Source: Acidisphaera sp. (GTDB lineage Bacteria > Pseudomonadota > Alphaproteobacteria > Acetobacterales > Acetobacteraceae). From it: 63,419 nt of DNA. Below the pieces are notes generated by a model, which saw nothing but the letters and a program-made list of their open reading frames with translations, was not told the DNA's origin and did no database searches. Every line of letters begins with the position of its first letter. The first letter of the stretch is position 1. Positions 56,552 to 59,175 of this stretch are shown here, piece after piece. A program made the translations under genes and the position numbers. The stretch spans positions 1 through 63,419 of the forward strand of contig JAFAYM010000208.1 in NCBI GenBank assembly GCA_019240395.1, given 5' to 3'.

Positions 56552-56626
56552 TCAAGGGACGGCCATGCCGACCGCCCCAGTGCCGAGCGCCCCAGTGCCG
56601 ACCGCCCGATTGATGAGGCTCGTCAT
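56552..56626 (-). CDS. 24-residue frame coupled to flhF
   Basis: ATG overlaps the flhF stop as ATGA, and the frame runs 24 codons to a TGA next to a possible start of the SGNH-like gene. It encodes a glycine/alanine peptide with a repeated GTGA unit, from a 15-bp tandem repeat. It may be only a spacer that carries ribosomes between the two genes. Confidence 0.3.
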   Translation of the reverse strand: MTSLINRAVGTGALGTGAVGMAVP

Positions 56627-57561
56627 GAGAGGCTCTCTTCGTGTTCGGCCGGTTGCGGCGCCGGCGCCCGGGTACGCAGCAGGCGCTCGGCGAGAAACTG
56701 CGGGGACAGCTTCACCAGCCCGTCGGCCGCACCCGGGCCGATGCCCGCTTCGGTCAAGGCGAGCCGGTTCCCCGCCGTCGCAGCGAGTACGCCACCGAGC
56801 CGTCGTGCCATGTCGAGGCGCGTGGCGATCAGCATCGTCGCACCGGCCTCGGCGAAAGCCTGGCCGATATCCTGGGATTCCGCGGGGTCCATGCCGGCCG
56901 GCAGCACCAGCGCGATGACGGCGCCGGCGGTGGCGGCCAGCGCCGTCAGCTCGTCCCGGTGTGCCGGGTCGAACGGATCGCCGCCCGGCCCGTCGATCAC
57001 CACCGGCGCGCTGTCCTGGCGATGGCTCAGTGCCCGACCGAGGGTCACCGGGTGACTCGCCACCAGAACGTTCAGCCCGAGCACGCGGGTGAAGGCGGCC
57101 AGCTGCTCGGTGGCGCCGGCCCGGCGGCCGTCGGCGGTGATCACCATCGGGATCGCGCCCGACAGCACCAGCCGGGTGGCGAGCCGGGCGGTGGTCAGCG
57201 TCTTGCCGGCGCCCGGCGGACCGACCAGCAGCAGCGGCGGCCCGCCGCGCGGGCTCGGCAGCTCGCCGAAGAGCAAGACCTGCCTCAAAGCCTCATCCAG
57301 CGCCCCGTCATGCAGCCGGTCAGCCAGGGTCGGCGGCACCCCGTGATAGGCGAGCGCCGCAACCCGTGCCGGATCGGCGAGCGGCGGCGGCTCGGGAAAC
57401 TCGGTGACGCCCGAGGAAAGCCCTGGGGAGAGTGCCGCCGTCACTTCCACCCCGTCGGGCACGCTGCGCTTCGCCAGAATCATCGCATCGGGACCGAGAT
57501 CGAGGCGGGCACGCCTCACCGCCTCGGCCATCTCGGAGCCCCGATACAGCTTCAACCGCAT
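56623..57561 (-). CDS. flhF: Flagellar SRP-like GTPase FlhF
   Basis: A 312-residue protein starting MRLKLYRGSEMAEAVRRARL, the FlhF N-terminus, followed by GPDAMILAKR. The SRP-type P-loop is GPPGAGKT at residues 114-121, and later motifs (VVIDGPGGDPFDP, TRLDMARRLGG) are recognisable but looser than in FlhF proteins that dimerise. It is shorter than most FlhF proteins because the linker is reduced. FlhF places the flagellum at the pole. FlhA and FlhG genes are not adjacent. Confidence 0.82.
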   Translation of the reverse strand: MRLKLYRGSEMAEAVRRARLDLGPDAMILAKRSVPDGVEVTAALSPGLSSGVTEFPEPPPLADPARVAALAYHGVPPTLADRLHDGALDEALRQVLLFGELPSPRGGPPLLLVGPPGAGKTLTTARLATRLVLSGAIPMVITADGRRAGATEQLAAFTRVLGLNVLVASHPVTLGRALSHRQDSAPVVIDGPGGDPFDPAHRDELTALAATAGAVIALVLPAGMDPAESQDIGQAFAEAGATMLIATRLDMARRLGGVLAATAGNRLALTEAGIGPGAADGLVKLSPQFLAERLLRTRAPAPQPAEHEESLS

Positions 57562-58214: not shown

Positions 58215-58374
58215 CAATTGCGGTTGAGGAGGCAGCAAGCTGAATCGAGCGCCGCTTCATCAGCTGTTAACCGAACCCGGCCAAGCTGCGCAGGTCCCGC
58301 AAAACGCATGGCAAGTGTCCATCGCAAATGGCGTGTCACATCGAGGCGGGCCCGTGCACCGAAGGTAAAAACCA

Positions 58375-58662
58375 ATGCCCCTGCTGAATTCCGCGAACAC
58401 CGCGTCCGGCACCAAGACCGCCATGGAGTTCGCGGAGTCAGCAAATTCGCCGCTGACCAGTTCGAAACCCGTCTCGACAAGCCGGAGCGCCTCCACAGCC
58501 AGTGAAGACGGCAGCGGCCTGGGCTCGCTGACCGATGCGGATCCGGCGAGGGAATCGGCGCAACTGCAGTCCCTGCAGATCAAGCAGCAGCTCGGCACTC
58601 AGGCGCTGTCCATCGTCAACGAGGCGCCCTCGTCCCTGGTGAGCCTGCTCAAGAACCCCTGA
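58375..58662 (+). CDS. Mini-flagellin: only the two terminal D0 regions, 95 residues
   Basis: The first half ([20 protein letters not shown], then [15 protein letters not shown]) matches a flagellin N-terminus with decayed residues (family LNSVNTN-GA---AL--L and VSTGLRVSSA-DDGA). The second half ([20 protein letters not shown], then SSLVSLL) is a well-kept flagellin C-terminus. The D1-D3 body of about 200 or more residues is absent and the halves join near residue 50. A GAAGG ribosome site precedes the ATG. It lies just ahead of flbT, where flagellin genes occur in alphaproteobacteria. It may be an internal deletion relic or a short assembly factor. Confidence 0.7.
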
Positions 58663-58758
58663 AGAAGGAGCGGCAGCGGAAAACCTTCGCCGCCGCTAAT
58701 TCCGCGTCAACCGCGATGGCGCAGGGTGACGCGCACGACCAGATCCGAGCAGGGATGC

Positions 58759-59175
58759 ATGTCGAACTTGGTTCTTGAGCTGCGCCCCGGTGAAGTCATG
58801 ATCGTGAACGGCGCGCCGATCCGCTTCCGGACGAAAGCGCGTATCGAGTTGACGGCGAAAGCGCGCTTCCTGTTCGGCAAGCAGATCATGACGCCGGACC
58901 AGGCGGACAGCCCCTCGCGCCGCATCTATTTCGCCCTGCAGTCCGCCTATATCGGCGACGACGACGAGCGGGTGCGCGGACTGGCCTTGGCCCGCGACCT
59001 GATCGCCGCCTTCAAGGAAGCCACCACTTCCGAATTGGCGCGCGAGATCCTCGATCGCGCCATTGCGCAGGCCGAGGCGGATGAATGCTATCAGGCGCTG
59101 AAGCTGGCGCGACGGGTGATCCGTCACGAGGATGCAGTTCTCGGACGCACTCCGGCGGCCCTGCTGCCAGCGTGA
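58759..59175 (+). CDS. flbT: Flagellin post-transcriptional repressor FlbT
   Basis: A 138-residue FlbT protein, which binds the flagellin mRNA leader and destabilises it. LVLELRPGEVMIVNGAPI opens the protein, and QADSPSRRIYFALQSAYIGD is the conserved middle. The ATG at 58759 gives the standard N-terminus. FlaF, the usual antagonist, is not present beside it. Only the mini-flagellin lies upstream. Confidence 0.9.
   Translation: MSNLVLELRPGEVMIVNGAPIRFRTKARIELTAKARFLFGKQIMTPDQADSPSRRIYFALQSAYIGDDDERVRGLALARDLIAAFKEATTSELAREILDRAIAQAEADECYQALKLARRVIRHEDAVLGRTPAALLPA

Follow-up and report, generated by a model that had tools for sequence, protein, structure and literature searches.

Probable in-frame deletion relic of flagellin upstream of an intact flbT in an Acidisphaera lineage without a flagellum

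Loss of flagellar gene clusters by deletion is already well known, and FlbT is known as a regulator of flagellin. In Caulobacter, FlbT is a post-transcriptional regulator that binds the 5' UTR of flagellin (PMC3930126), and in Brucella it is required for flagellin production (PMC8781033). Brucella also carries flagellar pseudogenes while its flbT is intact (PMC8781033). In the non-motile Xanthomonas fuscans 4834-R, 34 contiguous flagellar genes are missing (PMC3826837). The locus described here is a further example of such loss. It lies in a window of 63,419 nucleotides (the whole stretch of DNA that was analysed; Acidisphaera sp., assembly GCA_019240395.1, contig JAFAYM010000208.1). The window resembles X. 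fuscans 4834-R in an apparently large deletion of flagellar genes with a few members left behind, and differs from it in having a flagellin stub together with intact flbT and flhF. Both this organism and Brucella are alphaproteobacteria in which flagellar genes are broken and flbT is intact, but Brucella retains fliC, flhA and much else of the system, and the window genome has lost these. A close counterpart is the flagellin (PF00669/PF00700) encoded upstream of flbT in Acetobacteraceae, with which the window shares the leader, the start, the order of the two D0 parts and the location ahead of flbT. Compared with it, the window remnant lacks about 190 residues of the D0/D1 core, has conserved residues broken at both ends, and stands in a genome in which the export system was not found. 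The reading frame at 58375-58662 is very probably a pseudogene, the in-frame deletion relic of a flagellin in a flagellum-less lineage. As such it records that the lineage lost its flagellum and illustrates the shrinking of a flagellin gene, and is otherwise ordinary.

The frame (58375..58662, forward strand) runs from an ATG start to a TGA stop and encodes 95 aa, with no internal stop or frameshift. We compared it with a family profile of 283 columns made from 47 intact flagellins (275-302 aa) that Acetobacteraceae encode at the same site, immediately upstream of flbT. The frame matched columns 2-47 and then columns 237-283, in order and with zero residues between them; that is, an N-terminal D0 part (58375..58515, forward strand) is fused in frame to a C-terminal D0 part (58513..58653, forward strand), and columns 48-236, the D1 core between the two D0 parts, are missing. 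This agrees with the earlier note, made from the DNA letters alone, which had both ends of flagellin recognisable and directly joined. The C-terminal part scored 68.3 bits on the family profile and 37.1 bits on Pfam Flagellin_C (PF00700, cut-off 23), and matched many solved flagellins in phmmer searches. The N-terminal half remained below the cut-off of Pfam Flagellin_N (PF00669, 12.7 versus 26.6 bits) and was identifiable as flagellin only through the family profile, on which none of 2000 shuffles attained its 13.8 bits (maximum 7.4). One phmmer alignment suggested an alternative junction with residues 15-47 on the C-terminal side, which we rejected, as the family profile puts these residues in the N-terminal part, even though sub-pieces alone score just 1.5-3.5 bits. 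Inspection of the junction revealed no clear repeat that would represent microhomology.

A remnant of the flagellin 5' leader, with the motif TTCAT..GTTAA..CCCGCAAAA, was detected at 58252..58318 (forward strand) by nhmmer with the leaders of the 47 intact family flagellins (23.7 bits, E 3e-8), and the DNA profile of intact relatives also recovers the start together with the DNA coding for the N-terminal part. The ribosome-binding site GAAGG (58361..58365, forward strand), assigned from sequence and leader comparison, is the same in intact relatives, and the remnant leader has about 26 extra bases before it. Like the leader and the ribosome site, the spacing from the remnant's stop to flbT (58756..59175, forward strand) is still recognisable, and reading frame, ribosome site and position before flbT have all been kept, as originally described. 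Some 110 bases upstream of the flagellin gene, the leaders of intact relatives (L064-L143) share TTCA-N7-TTAA and, after it, a short CCCGCAAAA..GCGGG motif resembling a hairpin; this element may represent the promoter and the leader to which FlbT binds.

Both halves of the remnant are decayed, and to different degrees. A column was counted as conserved when at least 90% of 22 relatives share it, and breaks in the remnant were compared with leave-one-out maxima from these relatives. In the heavily decayed N-terminal part 11 of 22 conserved columns were broken (50%, with a leave-one-out maximum of 13%), and on a fixed tree its amino-acid terminal branch was the longest of 23 (4.1, the next being 0.5). 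The moderately decayed C-terminal part showed breaks in 5 of 29 conserved columns (17%, leave-one-out maximum 10%), among them losses at near-invariant positions (V6T, A34V, F45L), and had the second longest amino-acid branch on the fixed tree. The N half is the more decayed of the two (Fisher p 0.017). The AlphaFold prediction has a mean pLDDT of 60.5 with confidence restricted to the C-terminal helix; the remainder is of low confidence, and the N half, at a pLDDT of about 45-50, is mostly coil. Of the earlier portrait of a drifting N-terminal D0, a well conserved C-terminal D0 and a protein made of terminal helices, the drift is therefore borne out, the C-terminal D0 is readily recognised and at the same time moderately decayed, and a helix is confidently predicted at the C-terminal end and not in the N half.

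Searches of the whole assembly, which is 97.85% complete in 303 contigs, identified the frame at 58375-58662 as the sole Flagellin_C match. No match to Flagellin_N, FlhA, Flg_bb_rod (the rod/hook family) or FlaF was found in the whole assembly, and positive controls were matched in each family search. In relatives, flgE, flgK and flgL (as we take these genes to be from reading their translated sequences) lie upstream of flagellin, flagellin lies directly upstream of flbT, and flaF follows downstream; neither flgL, flgK, flgE and flaF nor remnants of them were found in the window. Some relatives with intact flagellin (e.g. G034) have no FlhA in their drafts either, and the absence of one gene therefore proves little. 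Four families missing together, combined with the local loss of neighbours, are stronger evidence than any one absence.

A second decayed flagellin remnant was encountered beside an intact flbT in a genome of another genus, G066 (L134/L153; remnant at L134:5500-5913). It is a 138-codon open frame with decayed N and C parts and with end points unlike those of the window remnant. It has CTG in place of the start ATG and breaks at 9 of 26 conserved C columns, making it the more decayed of the two, and FlhA was not found in this genome either. The flbT of L134 sits between the remnant and apt. The V-to-T change at position 6 of the C part is common to both remnants, and the two loci are not grouped with support in the flbT tree. 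The remnants may nevertheless go back to a shared deletion: although their end points are not the same, one deletion could lie inside the other.

The relic reading is thus carried by the middle missing in the column-by-column match, by flagellar genes that are absent, by breaks at conserved residues, by the want of a conserved homologue of similar length in the collections searched, and by the parallel remnant in G066. Under this scenario, which was one of the possibilities first put forward and which the analysis favours, the starting gene would have been a flagellin standing upstream of flbT, and an in-frame deletion would have removed its codons for approximately family columns 48-236. The surrounding flgL, flgK, flgE, flaF and flhA would have been deleted too as the lineage lost its flagellum. 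The two remaining ends would now drift, and the frame would have stayed open because so far only few stops have come up in this G+C-rich DNA. From this pattern we infer that a deletion was the cause and that the remnant has no function. Counting against it are the frame without stop or frameshift and the retained ATG and ribosome site. In neutral simulations, however, the frame was still open in 53-32% of cases with 20-40 substitutions, so often that openness is not evidence of function. The lesser decay of the C half is not what uniform neutral drift would give, and in a 303-contig draft absence from the assembly is by itself no proof.

The behaviour of flbT invites a different reading. The intact flbT of the window matches FlbT (PF07378) over its full length (107.4 bits, columns 1-125 of 125), has 3 of 79 conserved columns broken (4%, leave-one-out maximum among relatives 13%), and its amino-acid/third-position branch ratio of 0.18 (rank 68 of 83) indicates no relaxation. 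It is thus under normal constraint though its flagellar partners are gone, which is mildly puzzling. The flbT of L134 keeps 70 of 73 conserved positions, though its branch ratio is rather high (0.75, rank 8 of 83). FlbT without a FlhA or flagellin match was also seen, by cross-reading of searches, in G099, G129, G141, G301 and G348; we regard this retention of FlbT in draft genomes lacking FlhA and flagellin as a lead only, as drafts may hide genes. FlbT might have a non-flagellar role in Acetobacteraceae, with the flagellin stub retained because FlbT targets its RNA or partners its peptide. The better preservation of flbT and of the C-terminal end, relative to the N-terminal end, would follow from this combination; we nonetheless consider the combined proposal improbable. 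As flbT is constrained without FlhA, FlaF or flagellin, a non-flagellar role of FlbT is directly testable. In a related explanation the locus would persist because flbT uses it as a regulatory leader or peptide, with the old leader and C-terminal DNA serving flbT transcription or translation or remaining as FlbT-bound RNA. The intact, constrained flbT and the slower decay of the C half speak for it. However, the leader has gained its extra bases before the ribosome site, near-invariant positions of the C half have been lost, and G017 (L152) has a flbT, albeit a more diverged one, with FlhA, FlaF, flagellin and any flagellin remnant all absent. To this explanation, too, we assign only a small chance.

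A working mini-flagellin, cap or export regulator, the other possibility raised by the earlier note, fares considerably worse. Such a product could draw on the open frame with its start and ribosome site and on the confidently predicted C-terminal D0 helix. The genome, however, lacks the export gate (FlhA), the rod/hook family, FlaF and any other flagellin, and because the export gate is absent a working subunit or cap is very unlikely; half of the conserved N-half residues are lost, and the C half has losses as well. Neither is there a conserved homologue of 80-110 residues among the 80 flbT loci or the matches listed in 397 family genomes that were searched, though rare cases may have escaped this listing. 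Flagellin beside flbT, where complete, is full length in the 80 flbT loci with the one exception of L134. No flagellin stands beside flbT at L114, L118, L121, L132 and L138, and the same-genus genome G001 (72% complete) gave no match to the remnant or to flbT. Short Flagellin_C frames that could have represented a conserved mini-flagellin family (G016:C82, G036:C92, G036:C122, G018:C75 and G186:C81) were dismissed as contig ends, as were the short frames among the matches listed in the 397 genomes. We give this reading almost no chance.

An assembly or binning artefact, with a chimeric join cutting the gene short and flagellar contigs left out of the bin, could appeal to the 303-contig draft and to flagellar contigs missing in some relatives' assemblies too, but is hardly credible, as misassembly would leave unexplained both the point decay in the two halves beside a normal flbT and the similar remnant in G066.

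Two further features of the window concern the neighbourhood of the relic. Close downstream of flbT lie apt and a gene that we take by eye from its sequence, with no profile match, to be tctC; in several relatives the two are about 4-6 kb away from flbT. On the reverse strand, an flhF of about 311 aa (56623..57561; TIGR03499, 100.5 bits, below its cut-off) is intact in spite of the loss of flhA, normally found upstream of it, and of the remainder of the flagellum. It is 61% identical over 305 aa to the flhF beside flhA in L062.
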